Source of the DNA: Pseudotabrizicola formosa
Lineage (GTDB): Bacteria; Pseudomonadota; Alphaproteobacteria; Rhodobacterales; Rhodobacteraceae
DNA: 64,000 nucleotides
NCBI RefSeq assembly: GCF_002900965.1
Contig: NZ_PJOM01000002.1
Location: 1,302,001-1,366,000, forward strand
Direction of reading: 5' to 3'
Every line of letters starts with the position of its first letter. The first letter of the stretch is position 1. Under the pieces are notes generated by a model. It had not been told where the DNA came from. It saw only the letters and a program-made list of their open reading frames with translations, and searched no databases. Positions 7,802 to 18,702 of this stretch are shown piece after piece. The position numbers and the translations under genes were made by a program.

Positions 7802-8698
7802 ATGAGGACACCGCGCGACAGGCTTCTGGCGGCCTTCGGCGTCACGCTGCCGGTCCCGCCTCTGTCCGTCCGTCGGGTCACCACCGTGCTGCAGACAGCC
7901 GAATGCAGGGCGGAGGAATTGCGTCTGCGCGCAGAGGGCGGCGATGACATCCGGGCGTTCTGGTGCCGCCCGCGCGATCTGGCTGGTCCCGTTCCAGCCG
8001 TGCTGATCCTGCACGCGCATGGCAATCGCTATGATATCGGCGCCGCCGAGATGGTTCACGGACGGCCCGCGCTGCACACACCGACCGGGCCTGCCCTGGC
8101 CAGGCGTGGCATCGCCTCGCTCTGTCTTGACATGCCCTGTTTTGGCAGCCGCGCCGGGCAAAGCGAAAGCGCGACGGCGAAGGCCCTGCTGTGGGAGGGC
8201 CGGTCGCTGGCCGGGCAGATGCTGTGCGACAACCTTGCCGCCCTCGACTGGCTGTCGGCGCAGCCCGGCATCGACCCCGCGCGGCTGGGTGTGTTCGGCC
8301 TGTCGATGGGGGCCACGCTGGCCTATTGGCTGGCAGCGCTTGACCCGCGCCTGCGCGCGGTGGCGCAGGAGTGCTGCTTTGCTGATTTTCGCAGATTGAT
8401 CGCCCTTGGCCAGCATGATCTGCACGGGATTTACCTGACTGTGCCGGGACTTCTGGCCCATGCCTCGAACGGGCAGATTGCCGGGATGGTCGCGCCCCGG
8501 GCACAGTTCATCGGTCTGGGCGATCTGGACCCGCTCACGCCCCCCGCCGCCGTTGACCCGGCCCTGGCCGAGGTTCGGGCGGCCTATGCCCGCAACGGAG
8601 GTCGGTTGCTGATCCACCGCGAACCGGCGTCAGGCCATGTCGAGACGCCCGCAATGCACGCGGCCATGCTCGATTTCATGACCGATGCACTGGCCTAG
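7802..8698 (+). CDS. Alpha/beta hydrolase (dienelactone hydrolase/esterase-like)
   Basis: 298-residue serine hydrolase. The core begins with PAVLILHAHGNRYDIG (oxyanion-hole region). The nucleophile elbow is GLSMGATLAYW, and the candidate acid and base are Asp in FIGLGDLDPLTPP and His in REPASGHVETPA. No signal peptide is visible, so it is probably cytoplasmic. Family members deacylate or hydrolyse small esters and lactones; substrate cannot be read from sequence. It is convergent with the oligouronide transporter operon and overlaps the ATPase gene end by four bases, so an esterase role on imported sugars is possible but unproven. Confidence 0.8.
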   Translation: MRTPRDRLLAAFGVTLPVPPLSVRRVTTVLQTAECRAEELRLRAEGGDDIRAFWCRPRDLAGPVPAVLILHAHGNRYDIGAAEMVHGRPALHTPTGPALARRGIASLCLDMPCFGSRAGQSESATAKALLWEGRSLAGQMLCDNLAALDWLSAQPGIDPARLGVFGLSMGATLAYWLAALDPRLRAVAQECCFADFRRLIALGQHDLHGIYLTVPGLLAHASNGQIAGMVAPRAQFIGLGDLDPLTPPAAVDPALAEVRAAYARNGGRLLIHREPASGHVETPAMHAAMLDFMTDALA

Positions 8699-9750
8699 CC
8701 CAGCCGCTGCCCGTCTGCGCCGAAGACATGCACCGATTGCGGATCATAGCCCAGATCCAGCACCGCGCCGCGTGCCAGATCCGGCTGGCCGGGCAGCACG
8801 GCAAGCAGGCCATGCTCCGCTCCCAGATCGGCATGCACCACGCTTTCCGGCCCAAGCGCCTCGATCAACCGCACCTTGGCCCGCAGCGGCCCCCCGGTCT
8901 GGGGTCGCAGGTGTTGCGGGCGGATGCCGAGGGTCACAGCCCCATCGGGCACATGCAGCCCCACTGGCAAGGGCAAGAGCGCGCCATTGTCCAGGTGCAC
9001 CGATCCGTCCCTGGCCTGGCCCGCCCACAGGTTCATCCCCGGCGCACCGATGAAACCGGCCACGAACAGATTGGCGGGCCGGTTGAACAGGTTCAACGGA
9101 GTGTCCACCTGTTCGACCTTGCCGGCCCGCAACACCACGATCCGGTCGGCCATCGTCATCGCCTCGACCTGATCATGCGTCACATGGATCATCGTGGCGC
9201 CCAGCCGGTCATGCAGCGCCGACAATTCGGCCCGCATGGAGACCCGCAGTTCGGCATCCAGATTGGACAGCGGTTCATCGAGCAGAAAGGCCGTCGGGCG
9301 GCGCACGATGGCCCGGCCGATCGCCACGCGCTGACGCTGCCCGCCCGACAACTGGCCCGGGCGCCTGTCCAGCAGCGGCTCGATCTCCAGCATCCTTGCC
9401 GCCTCGGCGATGCGGCTGTCGATCTCGGCCTTCGGCATCCGGGTATTCTGCAATCCAAAGGCCATGTTGGCCCGCACGGTCATGTGTGGATACAGGGCGT
9501 AGGACTGGAACACCATCGCCAGCCCCCGATCCGCTGCCGAACGCGCGGTCACATCCGCGCCGTCAATCTCCACCCGCCCGGCCGTCGGCTTGTCCAGCCC
9601 GGCAATCATGCGCAGCAGCGTGGATTTGCCACAGCCCGAGGGTCCGACAAAGACCACCAGCTCGCCCTCATCTATGGTCAGATCAATGCCCTTGAGCACA
9701 TCAACGGCGCCAAAGCTCTTGCGGATGTCGTGCAACTGTATGCGACCCAT
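8695..9750 (-). CDS. Sugar ABC transporter ATPase (UgpC/MsmK type)
   Basis: 351-residue cytoplasmic ATPase that powers carbohydrate import. Walker A GPSGCGKST, signature LSGGQRQRVAIGRA, Walker B FLLDEPLSNLDAEL and switch HVTHDQVEAMTMADR are all intact. A C-terminal TOBE/OB region of about 110 residues (HVPDGAVTLGIRPQHLRP) is typical of MalK/UgpC-like proteins. It is the last gene of the minus-strand oligouronide operon, nine bases after the second permease. Confidence 0.93.
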   Translation of the reverse strand: MGRIQLHDIRKSFGAVDVLKGIDLTIDEGELVVFVGPSGCGKSTLLRMIAGLDKPTAGRVEIDGADVTARSAADRGLAMVFQSYALYPHMTVRANMAFGLQNTRMPKAEIDSRIAEAARMLEIEPLLDRRPGQLSGGQRQRVAIGRAIVRRPTAFLLDEPLSNLDAELRVSMRAELSALHDRLGATMIHVTHDQVEAMTMADRIVVLRAGKVEQVDTPLNLFNRPANLFVAGFIGAPGMNLWAGQARDGSVHLDNGALLPLPVGLHVPDGAVTLGIRPQHLRPQTGGPLRAKVRLIEALGPESVVHADLGAEHGLLAVLPGQPDLARGAVLDLGYDPQSVHVFGADGQRLG

Positions 9751-9759
9751 GGGGATATC

Positions 9760-10809
9760 CTATTTCAACCCGGTTCCGGCGATGCCCGCCGTGATGAACC
9801 GTTGCAGGAAGATGAAGACCAGAACGACCGGGATCATGGTGATGACGGTCATCGCCAGCAGATAGTGCCATTGCACGTTCAGCTCGCCCGCATAGGCGTT
9901 CAGGCCGACTTGCAGCGTATAGACCTCTTGGCGGCTCAGCACGATCAGCGGCCACAGGAAATCATTCCAGCGCCAGACCACGGAAAAGATCGCCAGCACC
10001 GCCAGCGCGGGTGCGGTCAGCGGCAGCACGATCCGCCAGTAGATCTGCCATTCGCTGGCATGATCCATCCGGGCAGCCTCCAGCAGCTCATCCGGGATCG
10101 TAAGCATGTACTGCCGCAGCAGGAATACCCCTGTCGGCGTGGCCACGGTCGGCAGGATCACGCCCCAAAGCGAGTTGATCAGCCCCACCCCCGACACGAT
10201 CGAGTAAAGCGGCACAAGGATCACCGACAACGGAATCATCAGCGTGGCGATGATCAGCACCACCACAAACCCACGGCCGCGGAACTCGTACTTCGACAGG
10301 GCAAAGGCAGCCATCGAATTGGTCAACAAGGTGATCAGCGTGGCCACCACCGTCACGAAGATCGAGTTTTTCGTATAGGTCAGGAAATCAAAGCGCAGAA
10401 ACGGGTCCAGGTAATTGTCCCAGGAAAACCCCACCTTGCGCACCGGGGTGCGGTTGGCGATGTTGATGCGCTGCACCTCGCCGGGGTTCTCGGGGTCCAC
10501 CATCTGCGCCACCGTGCCCACGCGCCGCACCTCGGCCAGGGTGCGGGTGCCTGCGTCATCGGTAACGGAAAACAGCGGCAAGGGTCGGTCATAGCCCTCC
10601 ACCACCACCGCCTGCGCCTCATAGGGCAGCAAGGTTGGCGGAAATTCCGACAGTTGCGCCGGTGATTTGAACGAGGACATCACCAGCCAGAACGCCGGCC
10701 CGAACATGATGATCACGGCAGCGCCCAGCCAGACGAAGGTGAACACATCGGTCCAATCCCAGCCGGTGCCGCCCTTGCGGCGGGTCAGAAACCCGATGGC
10801 GCGGCTCAT
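9760..10809 (-). CDS. Sugar ABC transporter permease, MalG type with a long periplasmic insertion
   Basis: 349-residue inner-membrane permease. After the first membrane helix (about 26-47, VWLGAAVIIMFGPAFWLVM) there is an unusually long loop of about 100 residues before the core helices. It contains repeated charged segments and NRTPVRKVGFSWDNYLDPF. The core carries the EAA loop EAARMDHASEWQIYWRIVLPL that docks on the ATPase. Closely related carbohydrate permeases usually have a shorter first loop. The start overlaps the end of the MalF-type partner (ATGA). Confidence 0.9.
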   Translation of the reverse strand: MSRAIGFLTRRKGGTGWDWTDVFTFVWLGAAVIIMFGPAFWLVMSSFKSPAQLSEFPPTLLPYEAQAVVVEGYDRPLPLFSVTDDAGTRTLAEVRRVGTVAQMVDPENPGEVQRINIANRTPVRKVGFSWDNYLDPFLRFDFLTYTKNSIFVTVVATLITLLTNSMAAFALSKYEFRGRGFVVVLIIATLMIPLSVILVPLYSIVSGVGLINSLWGVILPTVATPTGVFLLRQYMLTIPDELLEAARMDHASEWQIYWRIVLPLTAPALAVLAIFSVVWRWNDFLWPLIVLSRQEVYTLQVGLNAYAGELNVQWHYLLAMTVITMIPVVLVFIFLQRFITAGIAGTGLK

Positions 10810-11819
10810 TTCAGCTTTCCTCTCCGCTCGTTGCGCTTGCCCAAGGCAAGTTGCAGCAATGTCAGCACGATCAGCACCCCGCCCATCAGGATCGATGCCG
10901 CAGCGGCAAGTCCGGGGTTTTTCAGCAGCGAGGCAAAGCCCACTTCGTAGATATACTGCGTGAGGAAAAGCGTGGCCGTGCCCGGCCCACCGCCGGTCAG
11001 AACATAGGCCTCGTCAAACACCTGCACCGCGCGGATCAGCGCCAGCACGATCACCACCAGCATATTGGGCATCAACAGCGGCAGCGTGATGCGCCAGAAC
11101 ACGCGGGCGGGTTTGGTGCCATCCATCTCGGCGGCTTCATAAAGATCACGCGGAATGGCCTGCAGCCCGGCCAGCAGGATCAGCGCGAAAAACCCCAGAT
11201 GCGCCCAGATCGTGACGCCGATCGCAGCGGAAAAAGCATAGTTGCGCTCCAGCAGCCAGTTCACCGGGTCCATCCCCATGCCCACCAGCGCCGCATTCAG
11301 CACACCGTTGCGGTCCAGGATCCAGCGCCAGATCAGGCCAACCACAACGGGCGACAACAGGACGGGAAAAAAGAACACCGCCCGCCAGAAGCTGAGCGCG
11401 CGCAGTGCCCTGTTCAGGATCAGCGCGGTGATCGTCGCGGCGACGATCAGCAACGACACTTGCAGCACCACAAAGGTGCCGGTGTTGCGCAGGGCGATCC
11501 AGAACTGGTCTTCCTGGCAGGTCATCAGATCGGTGTAGTCAGTGCAGCGCAGCAGCCGTTCAAACTGCGCCGCACCCACAAAGGTCCGCTCAGGCAAAAA
11601 GAGGGCCGCGCCGGTGGTCATCGAATAGGCGATGTTGATCACCAGTGGCACCAGGACAAACACGGTGAAAATCGCCATGTTCGGCAGCAGGAAAAACGCC
11701 ACCATGCCAGTCTGCCCGGCCAGCCGCTGCCAAAGACGCAAAGGCGCCTCCAGCAGACGGGCGAGCCAGCCCAGGGGGGCCGCCACAACGGCCCCCAACA
11801 CTCCCTTTACCCCAGTCAT
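10806..11819 (-). CDS. Sugar ABC transporter permease, MalF type
   Basis: 337-residue inner-membrane permease with six predicted helices and the EAA loop EAAEMDGTKPARVFWRITLPL. It has a short periplasmic region with two cysteines (LLRCTDYTDLMTCQEDQ) that may form a disulfide. It pairs with the MalG-type permease, whose gene overlaps it, and follows the binding-protein gene by three bases. Substrate is inferred from the operon to be a unsaturated oligouronide. Confidence 0.91.
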   Translation of the reverse strand: MTGVKGVLGAVVAAPLGWLARLLEAPLRLWQRLAGQTGMVAFFLLPNMAIFTVFVLVPLVINIAYSMTTGAALFLPERTFVGAAQFERLLRCTDYTDLMTCQEDQFWIALRNTGTFVVLQVSLLIVAATITALILNRALRALSFWRAVFFFPVLLSPVVVGLIWRWILDRNGVLNAALVGMGMDPVNWLLERNYAFSAAIGVTIWAHLGFFALILLAGLQAIPRDLYEAAEMDGTKPARVFWRITLPLLMPNMLVVIVLALIRAVQVFDEAYVLTGGGPGTATLFLTQYIYEVGFASLLKNPGLAAAASILMGGVLIVLTLLQLALGKRNERRGKLK

Positions 11820-11822
11820 GGC

Positions 11823-13085
11823 TTATTGCGCCGCCGCGACCGCTTCGGTGATGTCCTGGTCGATGCGGGCATAGGCGTCGTCCAGCGTCAACTCGCCCGC
11901 CATCACCTGGCTGATCCGGTTGACCAGCGCGCCATAATAGGGCGTTGCCCATTTCCACGCGGGCAGCGCATCGGCACCGGGCAGGATATCGCCCGCCGCC
12001 GCGATATAGGCATCAAGGGCGGCACCCACATTCTTGTCCTCGGTCTGCCAGTTCATGCCGCCAGCCGCCACCACACCGGCATGGGCGGGCAGGAACAGGG
12101 TCCGCTCCGAAAACTCTTTCACGATGTCCTCGCGGGCAAAATACTCCATGACTTTCGCCACTTCCTCGGCGTTCTGGGTGTATTTCACCGCCACAAGCGC
12201 CGCCCCGCCAGCAAGGCCAGAGCATCCGGCCGTGCCGCAAGGCGACCCGGTGGCGACCCAGTCAAACCCGTCGCCGATCTTGGTCGACAGGTTGGCAATC
12301 TGCCAGCTGCCGGAATAGTAGAACGGGATGGCCGCATTGATGAAATCATCTGCCGCCGCACGGTAGGTGGAGCCTGACGCCGCAACCCAGGTGTCGCGCA
12401 GCATCTGCCCGCCTTCGACCCAGGCCACCAGCTTTTCGGCAAAAGCCTTGGTGCCGTCATCCACCGGCGCAGGCATGCCGTCTGCCGCAATGTAATTCGC
12501 GCCATAAGACACGGCCGGCCCGGAAATCCGGTGGCCGGAACGGTCGATGGCAAAGGCGGCGGCAGTGCCCTGCGACTTGGCGACCTGATCGGCGGCATTC
12601 ACCCAGTCATCCCAGGTTGCCCCCTCACCCGGCAGGGCCACACCGGCCTGCTCGAACAGGGTCGCATTGGCGAAACCGCCGGTCAGCGTCAGCTGGGTCA
12701 TGAAACCGGTGATCGCCTCGCTGCCATCTTCGCGCATCCAGTCGGCATGGGCCCCAAAATTGGTGCGCCAATATTCAGGGTCGGTCAGATGCGGCGTCAG
12801 GTCCAGCCAATGCGGGGCCAGCGTCTTGATGTTGGTGACGCGGGCGATGTCGGGGCCCGACCCGGCCTCCAGCTGGATCTGCAGCTGTTCCTGCACCACC
12901 TTATAGGCCACCTCGTCCAGAATGACGTTGATGCCGGGGTTTTCGGCATTGAACCGGGCGACGAGGTCTTTCATCACCTCGCCCTCTACCCCATCGGAAT
13001 ACCACATCAGGCGCACATCACCGGCAAGGGCTGTGGTGCCCATCAGGCTGGCCCCAAGCGCCAGGGCGATCATCGTGTTTTTCAT
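11823..13085 (-). CDS. Extracellular sugar-binding protein of the oligouronide ABC transporter
   Basis: 420-residue family 1 solute-binding protein. I place the start at ATG 13083-13085, because GGAGGAG lies six bases before it and a classical signal peptide follows (cleavage near GTTALAGD). The upstream in-frame ATG at 13100 has no ribosome site. The mature part has the expected text VRLMWYSDGVEGEVMKDLVA, RFNAENPGINV and SGPDIARVTN. It captures the oligosaccharide in the periplasm for the two permeases downstream in the operon. Confidence 0.92.
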   Translation of the reverse strand: MKNTMIALALGASLMGTTALAGDVRLMWYSDGVEGEVMKDLVARFNAENPGINVILDEVAYKVVQEQLQIQLEAGSGPDIARVTNIKTLAPHWLDLTPHLTDPEYWRTNFGAHADWMREDGSEAITGFMTQLTLTGGFANATLFEQAGVALPGEGATWDDWVNAADQVAKSQGTAAAFAIDRSGHRISGPAVSYGANYIAADGMPAPVDDGTKAFAEKLVAWVEGGQMLRDTWVAASGSTYRAAADDFINAAIPFYYSGSWQIANLSTKIGDGFDWVATGSPCGTAGCSGLAGGAALVAVKYTQNAEEVAKVMEYFAREDIVKEFSERTLFLPAHAGVVAAGGMNWQTEDKNVGAALDAYIAAAGDILPGADALPAWKWATPYYGALVNRISQVMAGELTLDDAYARIDQDITEAVAAAQ

Positions 13086-13131
13086 TGCAGTCTCCTCCAT
13101 GTGTTGTCCCGGCCTCCCGCCGGGGTCGTCT

Positions 13132-15603
13132 TTACCGGTGCAGGGTTCTGTGCCCCGCGACCGTCCAGTCCTTCGGATTCATGATCCGACCCTCCGCCCC
13201 GATCCGGCCATCGGCATGAAACTGCACCGGGCCGTATTCGGGGTCCACCACCGTGACTGTAGCATGTGGATCTGCCGAGTCAGGCGCAAGTTGCGCGCAT
13301 TGCGCAACAAAGGCATCCAGCCCCTGCCGCGCGGCTCCCATCCGCACGATCCACCAGCCCTGCCGCCCCGCCAGCCGCAATTCGCAGCCTGCTGTCGGGC
13401 CATCGGTCACCATCTCCAAAGGACCAGAGGCACGGATCAGCATGGCACCCTCTCCCACGCTTGCCGCCGCCAGATTGCCGTGCTGGTGGATTGTGTCAAA
13501 AGCCACCGCCGGAAACCAGCAATGGGTAAAATCGGGTTGTTCCGGCTGGCCCTCAAACCAGACCAGCGCCAGCCCGCGATATTGCTGAACCCGTGGCACC
13601 GAGGCCGAGCCACCCCAATAGGACGGGCGGCCATAGCCGGAGTGGATCACCTCGCCCGGATGGTTGATCCAGATCTGCGCATCGGGATTGGTCCCCAGCC
13701 GGGCGTGCAGCAGCGTTTCCTGATAGCCCCAGTCGAACCAGCGATAGGCGGCGGTGGTGCCCATGGCCCAGTCAGGCGTCTTCGCATGATACAGGGCAGC
13801 AAACCGCCCCTGCCCTTGTGCAAACATCCATTCCTGTTCTCCCGCTTGCAAACTGGCACGCGCCGCCAGCCCGGCATCCAGGTGCAAGTCATGATCGCGC
13901 AGCGCCAGCGCCAGCCCCGGAAGACAATGGAAGCGCGCGCCCAAATGGCCCATGCCCCACAGCATCCGGGTGATGGCCGACAATTCCAGCGTGCGCCCCG
14001 CGCGCAAGGTGTGTTCATAGCTGCGCCCTTGGGCGGCGGTGATCACCCCGTGATGCGCCGAATTGGCCACCACCTCCACCAGCCGCACCACGGCGCGGCC
14101 GGCCCGGTCGCGGATATCGGCATCGGGGGCCAGCGCGTAAAGGGCAGTCAACCCTTTCAGGTCAATCGGGAAATAGGGGGCAGAGTTGAACTCGGCCATT
14201 TCCCATTCCTCGAAATGATCCAGCCAGGCCCGCACCCGCTCACGCCCGGTAGCCGATTGTTCCGCCCCGCTACGCCCCGACCTGCGGAAGGTGGCCTCCG
14301 GCAGCAGGTGCCCTGCCAGATAGGCCGAAGTGTGGAACAAAAGCGCGTGGTTTTCGCTGAAATACCACTGCACATCATTGCCCGGCTCGTCCATCCAGTA
14401 GCGATAGCCAAGGATCGCTGCGTCGATCCGGTCGCGCACCCGGTCGGACAACAGATGTCCGAACCGGGTGCGCCCCCAGAGCAGCGGCACCAGCGCGAAA
14501 TCGGCGCAATCCCAGCAATCCTCGATCGCGGGGAGGGTCGCGTCGATCATTGCCTCGGTCTGGGGGCCGGAAAGCCCCTGCGCCAGCCGTGCCAGTGCCG
14601 CCACTGTGTCAGGTTCGGCGCGGGTGGCGACCCAGGTCAGCGCCTCGTCGATCCGCGCTTCCAAGCTCGCTGGGGCCTCGCCCTGCGCCGCCAGATCGCA
14701 GACCTCCACGCCGAAGGTGCGGGTGGCGGCAAAGCCATCCGCGGTCAGCGTCGGAATGAAATGCCGGAAATCGCCAGGCAGGTTTTCGGCGCGGTCAATG
14801 ACCAGCCGTCTGGCCCCGGCCGGCAGATGGCGCTGCAACGCGGCCGGGTGGTGCGACATGAAATCGCCCTCCACCCGGATCGCCACATCCGTATCCACCG
14901 GCATGGGATGCGGCAGCACCAAAGCCACCTCTCCCCCGGTATAGGCGGGCTGGTCGAAATGCATGGTGGCCAGTGCAGTTTCCATCGCGCGGGCGATGTC
15001 TGTGCTGCACCCTGTGGGAATGCCCGCCTCGGCCTGTGGCCCGTCCAGCCAGTCGGCCTGAATGTAATAGCGGGCGTCCCGCTCGGCCAGATCGTCGAAG
15101 AACACCTCGATCCGGTTGTCGCCCGCAGTCAGCGCCACCTCGAACTCTGCCGCTGTTTCGGCATTGCGCTTGTAGGGGGCCATCCAACCCGCTTCGGCCC
15201 CATTCACGAACAACACCGCCCCGCCGCAGGTGCGCAGGCGCAGCCGCGCGGCCCCTGCCGCCTGCGTGCGGATCACCGTTTGCGCCCAGGTCGCGATATG
15301 GGTCGGCCGGAACCAGAACCCCGACAGATCCAGCCGGGGCGCGCCGAAGGGCAGCCAGTTGCGCGCCGGTTCAAACCCGCCCGCAGCCTGTGGCCGCCGG
15401 TCGCGGCGGTCCGCCGCGAACTGGGTGCGGCAGGGATATTCGTGCGGGATGAAGTTCTTGTCCTTGGTCAGGAAAAAGAACGGGTCCATTTCCCCCTTCA
15501 TCGGTAGGTCGGGCAGATCAAAGCGCGCTTCGACCGTCTGGCCAAGACGCCAATAGCCAAGAGCCGTGCCGGAGGTCAGGGGATGGGACAGAAAGCCTTG
15601 CAT
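13132..15603 (-). CDS. Unrecognised 823-residue protein in the oligouronide operon, possibly a glycan-active enzyme
   Basis: Cytoplasmic by sequence (no signal peptide). Three regions can be seen. About residues 85-190 look like a beta-sandwich (LRLRTCGGAVLFVNGAEAGW, then FEVALTAGDNRIEVFFDDL), as in carbohydrate-active enzymes. About 310-600 are alpha-helical with conserved-looking clusters: WYFSENHALLFH (Asn418, His419, His424), FNSAPYFPIDLKG, NSAHHG (His517, His518) and GRSYEHTLRAG (Tyr529). About 610-810 are again beta-rich (QIWINHPGEVIHSGYG, RPSYWGG). This resembles the helical-toroid plus beta-sandwich layout of several polysaccharide lyases, with Asn/His and Tyr as candidate catalytic groups. 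I cannot assign a family. It lies nine bases after kduI and 46 before the binding-protein start, so it acts in the same pathway. Confidence 0.85.
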   Translation of the reverse strand: MQGFLSHPLTSGTALGYWRLGQTVEARFDLPDLPMKGEMDPFFFLTKDKNFIPHEYPCRTQFAADRRDRRPQAAGGFEPARNWLPFGAPRLDLSGFWFRPTHIATWAQTVIRTQAAGAARLRLRTCGGAVLFVNGAEAGWMAPYKRNAETAAEFEVALTAGDNRIEVFFDDLAERDARYYIQADWLDGPQAEAGIPTGCSTDIARAMETALATMHFDQPAYTGGEVALVLPHPMPVDTDVAIRVEGDFMSHHPAALQRHLPAGARRLVIDRAENLPGDFRHFIPTLTADGFAATRTFGVEVCDLAAQGEAPASLEARIDEALTWVATRAEPDTVAALARLAQGLSGPQTEAMIDATLPAIEDCWDCADFALVPLLWGRTRFGHLLSDRVRDRIDAAILGYRYWMDEPGNDVQWYFSENHALLFHTSAYLAGHLLPEATFRRSGRSGAEQSATGRERVRAWLDHFEEWEMAEFNSAPYFPIDLKGLTALYALAPDADIRDRAGRAVVRLVEVVANSAHHGVITAAQGRSYEHTLRAGRTLELSAITRMLWGMGHLGARFHCLPGLALALRDHDLHLDAGLAARASLQAGEQEWMFAQGQGRFAALYHAKTPDWAMGTTAAYRWFDWGYQETLLHARLGTNPDAQIWINHPGEVIHSGYGRPSYWGGSASVPRVQQYRGLALVWFEGQPEQPDFTHCWFPAVAFDTIHQHGNLAAASVGEGAMLIRASGPLEMVTDGPTAGCELRLAGRQGWWIVRMGAARQGLDAFVAQCAQLAPDSADPHATVTVVDPEYGPVQFHADGRIGAEGRIMNPKDWTVAGHRTLHR

Positions 15604-15612
15604 GTCAGGGGA

Positions 15613-16446
15613 TTACCTAAGAGAGGACACGGAAACGGGGGTAAAGTCGGTATAGGCCTGGTTTTCGCCGGTCATGCCCCAGACAAAGGCATAAGGCCCG
15701 GTCCCGGCCCCCATGTGAATGGACCAGGCGGGCGACAGCACCATATCGCCATTGGCCACCACCAAATGCCGGGTCTGGTCGGGGCGGCCCATGAAATGCA
15801 TCACCCGGTCCTCGGCACCCATGTCAAAATAACAATAGGCCTCCATCCGCCGTTCGTGCAGATGCGGCGGCATGGTGTTCCACATGCTGCCGGGGGCCGG
15901 ATCGGTGATGCCCATCAACAGCAGGCAAGAGGGCGAGACTTCGGGGTGAATGTACATTGCAAGCGACCGCGCATTCGCCTTTGCCGCATCCCCCAGCTGG
16001 ATGCGCTTGGCCTGATCACGCCGGATCAGCCGCGTCGGATGATCGGTGCCCGCAGGCACGGAGTTCACATAAAACCACGCCGGATTGGCCGCATCAGTGC
16101 TGCGCATGTCCACCTGCCGTACCCCGCGTCCGATATACAGGATATCGCGGTTGCCCATGGCGTAATCGGTGCCATCCACCGTCACCACCCCCGGCCCGCC
16201 CAGATTGGCCAGCCCCGCCTCACGGGCAGAAAAGAAGAACTCGGTTCCCAGTTCGGCCCCGTCGCCAAAGCTCAGCGGGCCATCCACCGGCACCGCGCCG
16301 CCAAGGATCATCCGGTCCACATGGGTATAGGTCAGCCGCAAGGCCCCCGGCGCAAAGGCCCCTTCCACCATGTAATCGCTGCGCAGCCGGTCGCTTGTCG
16401 CGGTCATCACATCGGCGGGGTTGCCGCCGTATCGCACATCCATCAT
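15613..16446 (-). CDS. kduI: 5-keto-4-deoxyuronate isomerase
   Basis: Converts 5-keto-4-deoxyuronate (4-deoxy-L-threo-5-hexosulose uronate), released from unsaturated uronic acids, to 3-deoxy-D-glycero-2,5-hexodiulosonate. The 277-residue length equals E. coli KduI (278). The zinc ligands are present at the same positions minus one: His195, His197 and Glu202 (PPHLHERRMEAY) and His244 (WSIHMGAGTGPYAFVW). Start at 16446 is set by AGGAGG seven bases upstream and an ATGATG overlap with the GH105 stop; the frame upstream is a GC-rich extension. KduD, the next enzyme, is not in this window. Confidence 0.95.
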   Translation of the reverse strand: MMDVRYGGNPADVMTATSDRLRSDYMVEGAFAPGALRLTYTHVDRMILGGAVPVDGPLSFGDGAELGTEFFFSAREAGLANLGGPGVVTVDGTDYAMGNRDILYIGRGVRQVDMRSTDAANPAWFYVNSVPAGTDHPTRLIRRDQAKRIQLGDAAKANARSLAMYIHPEVSPSCLLLMGITDPAPGSMWNTMPPHLHERRMEAYCYFDMGAEDRVMHFMGRPDQTRHLVVANGDMVLSPAWSIHMGAGTGPYAFVWGMTGENQAYTDFTPVSVSSLR

Positions 16447-17543
16447 GCCGCCACCTCCTGCGCCGAAACCTGGCCCTCGGCCTCGACCAGACACAGGATC
16501 GCCAAGGCCTGCCCATAGCCGGTGGGTTGCAGCGGAATATCGCGGTAGAACTGCAGATCATGCCCCATGCGGGTGCCGTAAGAGACGTTCTGCACCGTGC
16601 CCCCCTCATCGATATTCGCCATCACCGCCGCCACGCCGCGCCACCCGGCCTCGGCCCAGTCGGGCCCGCCGATCCCTTGCCGCGCGGCCTTCAGCAGCCC
16701 GTACGCAAAGCCCGCCGTGGCGCTGATCTCCTCATAGCTCGACGGATCATCCAGCAGCGTCCGCCACGCGCCGCTTTGCGTCTGCAACGGCAGCAGCGCC
16801 TGCACCTGCGCCTTGAGCACTTCGGTCAGATACAACCTGACCGACCCCGGCAGATCCGGCACCTCGAACAGGTCCAGAATGCAGGCCGTGATCCAGGCAT
16901 TGCCGCGTGCCCAGCGGGCGCGGGCAAAATTATGCCGCCCGTCAAAGGTCCAGCCATGAAACCAAAGCCCGGTGTCCGGATCCGACAAATAGCGCGCATG
17001 CACCAGAAACTGGCGGATCGCCTCATCCACCAGCTCGGTCCGGCCCGAAGCATGGCCATACCGGGCCAGAAACAACCCCGCCATGAACAGCGTGTCATCC
17101 CACAATTCGCCGGGATTCACCTTGTCGGACACATCATGCTGCAGCCCCGCCTCCTGGGTGCGCGGCGCATCCGTCATCAGACGGTTGGCCCAGTCGTCCA
17201 GCACCGGCCGCCAACGCGGATCGCCTGTCTCGGCCCAGAGCATCGACAGCGCCAGCATCGGTGCCGTGGTGTTGATGTTCAAATCGGGCAGGCCCGCCGC
17301 CAGATGCCGCGCATACCAGCCCTCAAGCATCTCGCGCAACGCCGGATCCCCCTGGCGCCGCCACAACTGGGCCAGACCATAAAGGCCCACACCCTGCGGC
17401 CATTCCCAGCTGTCAAAGCTGATGTAGTCGCCCGCCGTCCCGTCAAGATTCGGTTCGTCAAACTGGCCATCATGGCGCAGATCGGTCAGGCCCCGCACCA
17501 ATTGACCCAGTTTCAGCCTGATCTGATCCACCTGTGGTCGCAT
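16443..17543 (-). CDS. Unsaturated glucuronyl/rhamnogalacturonyl hydrolase, GH105
   Basis: Cytoplasmic (alpha/alpha)6-barrel enzyme that removes the 4,5-unsaturated uronic acid from oligosaccharides made by polysaccharide lyases, by hydrating the double bond. 366 residues, close to YteR (373). Family blocks include WEWPQGVGLYGLAQLW, the catalytic-Asp segment ELWDDTLFMAGLFLARYG (Asp150 likely catalytic), GLWFHGW, ARARWARGNAWI and SATAGFAYGLLKA. Start at 17543 follows GGGAGGGG. First gene of the operon; its promoter region holds two tandem LacI-type operators. Whether the natural substrate is rhamnogalacturonan, ulvan-like or another uronide cannot be decided from sequence. Confidence 0.92.
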   Translation of the reverse strand: MRPQVDQIRLKLGQLVRGLTDLRHDGQFDEPNLDGTAGDYISFDSWEWPQGVGLYGLAQLWRRQGDPALREMLEGWYARHLAAGLPDLNINTTAPMLALSMLWAETGDPRWRPVLDDWANRLMTDAPRTQEAGLQHDVSDKVNPGELWDDTLFMAGLFLARYGHASGRTELVDEAIRQFLVHARYLSDPDTGLWFHGWTFDGRHNFARARWARGNAWITACILDLFEVPDLPGSVRLYLTEVLKAQVQALLPLQTQSGAWRTLLDDPSSYEEISATAGFAYGLLKAARQGIGGPDWAEAGWRGVAAVMANIDEGGTVQNVSYGTRMGHDLQFYRDIPLQPTGYGQALAILCLVEAEGQVSAQEVAA

Positions 17544-17590
17544 GTCCCCTCCCCGGGCATCGGCATTTGGTCGATCGTTGAAGCATGGCA

Positions 17591-17607
17591 GTGCAAAATT
17601 TTTGCAC
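17591..17607. promoter_or_regulatory. Perfect 17-bp palindromic operator
   Basis: GTGCAAAA-T-TTTTGCAC is an exact inverted repeat around base 17599 in the divergent region between the GH105 operon and the LacI-family gene, 48 bases before each start codon. Its odd length and central position are those of a LacI-family operator. Confidence 0.75.
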
Positions 17608-17611
17608 AACC

Positions 17612-17626
17612 TGAAAATTTTTTGCA
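17612..17626. promoter_or_regulatory. Second, imperfect operator copy
   Basis: TGAAAATTTTTTGCA matches the core TGCAAAATTTTTGCA of the first operator at 13 of 15 positions. Its centre (17619) is 20 bases from that of the first, about two helical turns, so two dimers would sit on the same DNA face. Confidence 0.6.
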
Positions 17627-17655
17627 TAGTCAGACAGCAAAATGGAAAAACCCCA

Positions 17656-18702
17656 ATGGCACCGATTCCCCCCGGGAAAAGCGGCAAACCCAGCCGCCGC
17701 ATCAGGCTGGACGATCTTGCGAAGGCTTGCGATGTGTCGATCGCCACGGTGTCGCGCGCCCTGTCCGGCACGCCGGGCGTCCGGCCCGACCTGGTCGAAA
17801 AGATCCAGCGCAAGGCGCAGGAGTTTCGCTACGCCCTGCCCTCGACCCTTGCCGGTCAGCGCTTGCTGATTCTTGCCAGCCGCGCCGCCATGGAAGACTA
17901 TGCGCGCAGCCAGTTTACCCTGAATGTCATGCAAGGCATCGAGGAACGCGCCCGCCTGCTACGGGCCGAGGTGATCACCGAAGCCATCACCTCGACGGAA
18001 CAGGAACGACAGGCCCTCGCACTGGCCGCGACCGACCCGCGCGTGACGGGTCTGCTGTTCCTGACACTGGACGACGAAGACATGCTGACCGCCGCCCGCA
18101 GGTTTCGCAAGCCGGTGGTTCTGGTCAACGGGGATGATCCGCTGATGCAGCTGTCGTCGGTTGCGCCGTCAAACCGGGCTGCCGCCAGCATGGCCACCGA
18201 TTACCTGATGCGGCTGGGGCACCGCCGCATCCTGTTTCTCAGCCGCAGGGGCCGCCGCACGATTGAACGGCGGGCCGAAGGCTGGCGAGACCGAATGACC
18301 CTGGGCGGCGCGGCATTCGATCCGGGACTGCAGGTGGATGTGGCAGACTGGCTGCCTGATCACGCCGCAAAAGCGCTCCGCGACAGGGTCAGCGCCAAGG
18401 GCCTCGACTTCACCGCCGTGCTGTGTGCCGGCGACAGTCTGGCGCTTGGGGCAATGCAGGGCCTGGCCTCACTGGGGATCAGCGTCCCCGATCAAGTGTC
18501 GGTGCTGGGTATGGACGGTCTGGCCCAGGGCGCATTCTTCTCGCCTGCCCTGACGGTTCTGGAAATTCCGATGCGCCACATCGGATCGGCGGCAGTTGAT
18601 CTGCTGCGCGACCTGAGCCTTGGGGCGCATCTGCCCGCCCGCCGCATCGAACTGGCCTGCCGGCTGGTGGAACGCAAATCCTGCGCCGCCGTCGCCGGTT
18701 AG
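17656..18702 (+). CDS. LacI-family transcriptional regulator of the oligouronide operon
   Basis: 348 residues. An N-terminal LacI helix-turn-helix with hinge (about 17-65: IRLDDLAKACDVSIATVSRALS) is followed by a periplasmic-binding-protein-like effector domain (GQRLLILASRA, VLVNGDDP, NRAAASMATDYLMRLGHRRI, LCAGDSLALGAMQGL). I start at ATG 17656, since the frame upstream reads through the operators. It is divergent from GH105, and the two palindromes between them are its likely binding sites. Repression relieved by an oligouronide or its breakdown product is the expected mode, by family analogy. Confidence 0.92.
   Translation: MAPIPPGKSGKPSRRIRLDDLAKACDVSIATVSRALSGTPGVRPDLVEKIQRKAQEFRYALPSTLAGQRLLILASRAAMEDYARSQFTLNVMQGIEERARLLRAEVITEAITSTEQERQALALAATDPRVTGLLFLTLDDEDMLTAARRFRKPVVLVNGDDPLMQLSSVAPSNRAAASMATDYLMRLGHRRILFLSRRGRRTIERRAEGWRDRMTLGGAAFDPGLQVDVADWLPDHAAKALRDRVSAKGLDFTAVLCAGDSLALGAMQGLASLGISVPDQVSVLGMDGLAQGAFFSPALTVLEIPMRHIGSAAVDLLRDLSLGAHLPARRIELACRLVERKSCAAVAG

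Follow-up and report, generated by a model that had tools for sequence, protein, structure and literature searches.

Operons that join a glycoside hydrolase (GH) of family GH105 to the isomerase KduI are usually read as scavengers of the products of secreted lyases. One such operon lies in a 64,000-nucleotide stretch of the Pseudotabrizicola formosa genome (contig NZ_PJOM01000002.1, positions 1,302,001 to 1,366,000; hereafter the window), and it includes an open reading frame (ORF) of 823 residues (ORF823; 13132..15603, minus strand) that had been described, in a reading made from the sequence only, as an unassigned protein. What does this protein do, and which enzyme provides the GH105 hydrolase with an unsaturated substrate? 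The evidence assembled here, from family searches, a structural model, conservation and genomic company, favors an answer to both: ORF823 is probably a cytoplasmic beta-eliminating uronide lyase, consisting of an (alpha/alpha) toroid and a beta-sandwich, that feeds GH105.

Profile searches left ORF823 unassigned, within a scope of Pfam, NCBIfam and the PDB sequences, with CAZy and dbCAN profiles outside it. Pfam-A and NCBIfam returned nothing above their cut-offs for ORF823 or for any of 17 diverse family members, and phmmer and hmmsearch, using ORF823 singly or 40-sequence and 17-sequence profiles, gave no meaningful match among PDB sequences; weaker rows that missed these thresholds, such as DUF5444, RodZ_C, BetaGal_gal-bd, and crotonase, were regarded as chance hits. 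None of the 17 members matched Alginate_lyase (PF05426, which covers polysaccharide lyase families PL17, PL15, and PL5; E up to 5), Hepar_II_III_C (PF07940; PL12, PL15, PL17, and PL21), or Lyase_8 (PF02278; PL8). Comparison of the family by hhalign was not significant with either 19 PL5-like genome proteins (25 PF05426 loci minus six, L133–L137 and L140; probability 7%) or 14 heparinase-II/III-type genome proteins (15 loci minus L156, which is the same ORF as L138; probability 0.1%). Because these sequence profiles do not match, ORF823 was not filed under PL5, PL8, PL12, PL15, PL17, or PL21. Pfam also holds models of the PL26 PcRGLX type, and a scan of the whole of Pfam-A gave no such row in the 17 members. 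Literature searches on GH105, KduI, and lyases in rhizobia, on new lyase families and on PL26 turned up no account of the family among the entries listed, and a search with six of its protein or locus identifiers found no paper.

The predicted structure places ORF823 more closely. According to DSSP, the model consists of strands over residues ~1–301, helices over ~304–583, and strands again over ~589–822, bearing out the beta/helical/beta layout that had been read from the sequence. An N-terminal jelly roll that resembles the sugar-binding domain of GH2 beta-glucuronidases in fold matches (residues 10–190; 15034..15576) precedes a further beta-rich region (residues 191–301; 14701..15033), which leads into an (alpha/alpha) toroid with 12 helices from 314 to 583 (residues 304–583; 13855..14694) and a C-terminal antiparallel beta-sandwich that falls mostly within the lyase matches over 311–805 (residues 589–822; 13138..13839), all on the minus strand. 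A model built from the single ORF823 sequence had a predicted local distance difference test (pLDDT) score of 35.1 and was discarded. The toroid followed by an antiparallel sandwich is the arrangement of the structural class that the sequence-only reading had anticipated, and the toroid and C-terminal sheets gave structural matches to PL35, PL17, PL8, and PL12; among the matches listed, those aligned over at least 388 residues are lyases and one epimerase, with no glycoside hydrolase.

The nearest known enzymes with this fold each differ from ORF823. The PL17 oligo-alginate lyases (Alg17c; 4nei/4ojz), the PL35 GAGases (8khw, 8khv), and the PL8 hyaluronate/chondroitin lyases (1loh) have no sequence match to ORF823. 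Relative to PL17, ORF823 adds the GH2-type jelly roll and GH105/KduI neighbors, and the PL35 match covers model residues 309–784, leaving the jelly roll outside. The GH2 beta-glucuronidases (4jkm, 6ldc) share only this accessory jelly roll, whereas the catalytic part of ORF823 is modeled as a toroid. A GH2-type jelly roll fused to a toroid lyase would be an unusual domain combination.

Conservation hints at a lyase-type active site. In the most diverse alignment, with 17 members, 43 columns are invariant. The invariant polar or aromatic residues of the toroid number 17, of which 14 occupy loops before, or the first four residues of, even-numbered helices (D365, C366, D368; W403, D405, W413, E417, N418, H419; E471, S474, Y477; R527, Y529) and none the corresponding positions of odd-numbered helices (P 1.2e-4, permutation over polar residues); when all invariant toroid residues are counted, the division is 17 even, 4 odd, and 6 in the body. 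From the helix order, this clustering would therefore put them at one barrel end, where lyases hold their cleft. The sequence-only reading had drawn attention to Asn418-His419 (14347..14352), His424 (14332..14334), Tyr529, and His517-His518. The first four residues are invariant (17/17), whereas both His517 and His518 vary (Q/L and R/A/Q/N are present in a 22-member alignment) and were rejected as catalytic residues. The catalytic tyrosine is also probably not Tyr529 but the equally invariant Tyr477 (14173..14175; 17/17), which lies 59 residues after Asn418.

This reassignment depends on spacing. In toroid lyases, an Asn (often Asn-His) or a similar group is followed one hairpin later by a Tyr, as described in four papers (PMC12088678, PMC4765187, PMC11496695, PMC11921355). 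These papers give Asn183…Tyr242 and Asn349…Tyr408 for PL8 (both 59; the hyaluronate lyase neutralizer is printed as Asn239 in one paper and Asn349 in another, and the latter is used here), Asn240…Tyr294 for PL12 (54), Asn201-His202…Tyr258 for PL17 (57), Asn186-His187…Tyr239 for PL39 (53), Asn191/192…Tyr246 for PL35 (55/54), His311…Tyr365 for PL15 (54), Asn191…Tyr246 for PL5 (55), and Asn236…Tyr299 for PL23 (63). Counting the listed neutralizers Arg314 (PL15) and Glu205 (PL21) instead brings the spacing down to 51–52, for an overall range of 51–63. Asn418-His419…Tyr477 (59/58), on the same toroid end by helix order, fits this range, and Tyr529 does not. Since it lies 110 residues after His419, Tyr529 is kept only as a putative cleft residue in spite of its invariance; it belongs to an Arg527-Ser528-Tyr529 motif (14017..14025; Arg527 and Tyr529 invariant in the 17-member alignment) in a loop of low pLDDT before helix 540–549. 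The Asn-His pair is reported for PL17 and PL39, while PL35 has Asn-Asn.

The general base is less readily assigned. It is listed as a His at Tyr+130 to +166 in PL12, PL15, PL17, PL21, PL35, and PL39, and in PL5 the Tyr itself is so described. In the equivalent interval after Tyr477, the only invariant polar residue of ORF823 is Gln628, and the His413 reported for PL17 has no invariant counterpart at its spacing. PL8 has a His 9 residues before the Tyr, where ORF823 has Glu468. His424, His648 (replaced by Gln in two of the 22 aligned members), and Tyr477 itself are candidates. By its fold and residues, ORF823 looks like a toroid lyase.

The same face could nevertheless be that of a glycoside hydrolase. 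The invariant acidic residues D365, D368, D405, E417, E471, and D481 lie on or near it, a jelly roll of the GH2 type is characteristic of hydrolases, and the alpha-L-rhamnosidase 3w5n appears in the Foldseek list (probability 1.00, but template modeling score 0.19). ORF823 would then found a new toroid family, retaining or inverting, whose task is to remove a side-chain or terminal sugar from the imported oligosaccharide, giving GH105 access to a fragment that was unsaturated already at import. The Asn-His…Tyr arrangement fits lyases, and the longest alignments noted above contain no glycoside hydrolase; with the genomic evidence considered below, a hydrolase seems unlikely, although well short of negligible.

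The operon itself is as had been described, with ORF823 between kduI and the importer genes. The order of transcription is GH105, KduI, ORF823, solute-binding protein (SBP), two permeases and ATPase, every gene being on the minus strand and close to the next, with 9 bases separating the KduI end from the ORF823 start; the plus-strand reading of bases 13132–15603 is a different frame. The first gene encodes a GH88/GH105-family unsaturated-uronide hydrolase (16443..17543 from its likely start, longest ORF 16443–17813; PF07470, E 9.6e-84), for which the nearest solved chains are 3qwt, 3pmm, and 4xuv, with YteR more distant. No paper could be found behind its NCBIfam name, “beta-galactosidase BglB,” and the name was not taken as its function. 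KduI, the 5-dehydro-4-deoxy-D-glucuronate isomerase (15613..16446 from its likely start, longest ORF 15613–16494), matches the NCBIfam equivalog NF002091/PRK00924 over residues 18–293 of the longest ORF (E 8.4e-108, 360 bits). Downstream of ORF823 are the components of an ATP-binding cassette (ABC) importer: the extracellular SBP (11823..13100; PF01547, E 2.5e-16), permease A (10806..11819; PF00528), permease B (9760..10809; PF00528), and an ATPase of UgpC/MalK type (8695..9750; PF00005 and TOBE_2). On the plus strand are a divergent LacI-family regulator (17542..18702 as longest ORF, the true start probably later; PF13377/PF00356) and, beyond the ATPase, an AXE1/DLH-type alpha/beta hydrolase (7802..8698; PF05448, E 3.2e-7, and PF01738), which is a possible esterase partner.

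ORF823 has no obvious signal peptide, as had been claimed. Within its first 40 residues, the most hydrophobic 11-residue stretch reaches a hydropathy of 0.45, compared with 2.17 for the neighboring SBP, and 16 relatives, likewise without an obvious signal peptide, range from 0.07 to 1.78 (3 of them read from the match and not from a start codon). The measure is crude, as the AXE-type hydrolase scores 2.14. ORF823 is probably located in the cytoplasm, and together with the lyase-type fold, this sustains the earlier idea of a cytoplasmic lyase or hydrolase.

Close relatives of ORF823 amount to 118 stretches in a genome-contig search, the best 80 of which were kept; within the order, nine of the 292 genomes sampled have them, as do 200 of 72,556 plasmid records. 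A profile search of the phylum found the family in 9 of 398 genomes, some with a second subfamily (subfamily 2) that is ~30% identical to ORF823 and also common in many rhizobial plasmid records. A Subdoligranulum plasmid (Bacillota) and Catenovulum (Gammaproteobacteria) carry more distant members, as does Haladaptatus, whose protein lacks the N-terminal domain. The loop LTKDKNFIPHE (residues 45–55; 15439–15471) is almost invariant in subfamily 1, yet has pLDDT <50, and subfamily 2 has NGFVDVG at its position; it behaves as if folding only on substrate or partner.

Of the 93 loci that exceed 9 kb, neighbor matches were obtained for 92, and the remaining one, from Haladaptatus, matched no reference (L064 and L114 are probably a single locus counted twice, at least one such pair being present). 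Subfamily 1 accounts for 87 of the 92, with window-type GH105 in all 87 and KduI in 86 (the exception is L031), and subfamily 2 for five, each with GH88/105. The GH88/105 gene lies within 1.5 kb of the family gene in 89 loci and ~6 kb away in three with tripartite ATP-independent periplasmic (TRAP) transporters. The importer varies, being ABC, TRAP (L093, L110, L113), or major facilitator superfamily (MFS; L116), while the enzyme pair is constant. Other neighbors are KduD (25/92), AXE1/DLH hydrolases (36/92), and LacI matches (85/92). A GH88/105 gene stands directly 3′ of the relative in Subdoligranulum and Catenovulum, and in Rhizobium johnstonii 3841 it follows the relative and is itself followed by a GH28 gene.

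Because these loci had been chosen for carrying the ORF823 family, a reverse search was needed. With the window GH105 as query, 15 of the same 292 genomes matched at E ≤ 1e-40; the nine at 63–100% identity are exactly the nine with ORF823, and the six at 47–50% lack it. The original observation on ORF823 is more than chance, as judged from the 118 relatives and the co-occurrence of GH105, and the operon logic that had been built on GH105 and KduI stands. The existence of GH105 operons that lack ORF823 makes it plausible that sugars already unsaturated at import serve as food, a point in favor of a hydrolase.

Several other loci were observed in passing. The GH105 enzymes at 47–50% identity to that of the window form a second clade that occurs without ORF823. 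Three of its loci were looked at (L172, L173, L174; genomes G131, G259, G260): L173 has a TRAP importer, whereas in L172 and L174 the importer is of ABC type and an oxidoreductase-like ORF comes next, an IclR-like ORF lying alongside (names other than those of transporters were assigned by eye). The relative on the Haladaptatus sp. DYSN1 plasmid (L091, 11800–13785) lacks the jelly roll and an annotated GH88/105 neighbor, is surrounded by many Gfo/Idh oxidoreductases, and retains the equivalents of Asn-His, Tyr477, and Arg527/Tyr529; its role may differ from that of ORF823. In the Subdoligranulum plasmid (L115, 14669–17401), an MGH1/GH63-like enzyme comes after the relative and GH88, with a second GH88 farther on, which suggests a substrate different from that of the proteobacterial operons. 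Weak Hepar_II_III_C and weak GH88 matches within ~25 kb of a subfamily-2 gene (G543:C27:145822-150420, G531:C1:137542-142177) are perhaps another distant uronide locus.

What, then, makes the unsaturated sugar? In usual GH105 systems, secreted lyases do so. ORF823 shares the operon partner GH105 with the YteR-type unsaturated rhamnogalacturonyl hydrolase systems, but unlike in the usual case, no secreted lyase was found in the window’s genome among the few families tested. This genome has a single GH88/105 match, the operon gene, and no match to PL1, PL11, or PF05426; other lyase families were not searched except for Hepar_II_III_C, represented by one protein on another contig, a type that 12 of the 17 genomes carrying the family possess. 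PL1 occurs in three of those 17 (one weakly) and PL11 in none, and PF02278 also matched none, although control genomes were unmatched as well, making that search uninformative on PL8. These results favor, without proving, ORF823 as the maker of the unsaturation, and the missing PL1, PL11, and PF05426 matches weigh against a hydrolase that relies on ready-made substrate.

A lyase might instead finish what the lyases of other organisms had begun, reducing pre-unsaturated oligosaccharides to monomers in the manner of PL15 and PL17 oligo-alginate lyases. PL17 and the PL15 enzyme Atu3025 (3a0o) are among the fold matches, a PL15 enzyme is reported to be exolytic, and the use of ABC, TRAP, and MFS importers suggests that the substrates are short. 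GH105, the regular partner, would be superfluous beside an exolyase that releases unsaturated monomers, and such a secondary role appears improbable. A uronosyl C5-epimerase or isomerizing enzyme of the same fold, adjusting a uronate before another step, is the least probable reading: the unsaturated uronates on which GH105 and KduI act have lost their C5 stereochemistry, leaving no pathway need, and the pairing with GH105 favors a lyase.

For ORF823 as a cytoplasmic lyase that feeds GH105, the following order of steps can be proposed. The ABC importer would take up a short oligosaccharide containing uronic acid. In the cytoplasm, Asn418-His419 would neutralize the carboxylate of a 4-O-linked uronic acid, the C5 proton would be taken by Tyr477 or by His424/His648, and Tyr477 would protonate the leaving oxygen, giving a 4,5-unsaturated uronic acid at the non-reducing end. 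GH105 would remove the unsaturated residue, and KduI, KduD, and KDG kinase would pass it to central metabolism. KduD-like and KDG-kinase-like proteins are present in 9/9 genomes, KduD of the window’s genome lying in a separate TRAP/KduI-like uronate locus (L175, 6384–13972; C7:473000-490000). That locus comprises TRAP-transporter-like ORFs, a second KduI-like and a KduD-like protein, and fructuronate-reductase-like and glucuronate-isomerase-like ORFs, all named by eye except KduD. An acylated pectic oligosaccharide of rhamnogalacturonan-I type is a tentative guess at the substrate.

More broadly, ORF823 could represent a new polysaccharide lyase family that makes the first, not the last, cut in the cytoplasm, with saturated uronate oligosaccharides imported whole and made ready for GH105 inside, a proposal to which we give slightly less than even weight. 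If true, it would explain how substrate is supplied where a GH105/KduI operon occurs without any recognized secreted lyase in the bacterium. Should ORF823 prove to be the lyase, a sequence family called “hypothetical protein” wherever annotated in the records examined would gain a testable activity, and since the family is coupled to a single GH105 clade, the test is simple. Many rhizobia and roseobacters would then be able to import acidic oligosaccharides of plants or algae whole and still saturated, and to keep their cleavage private.
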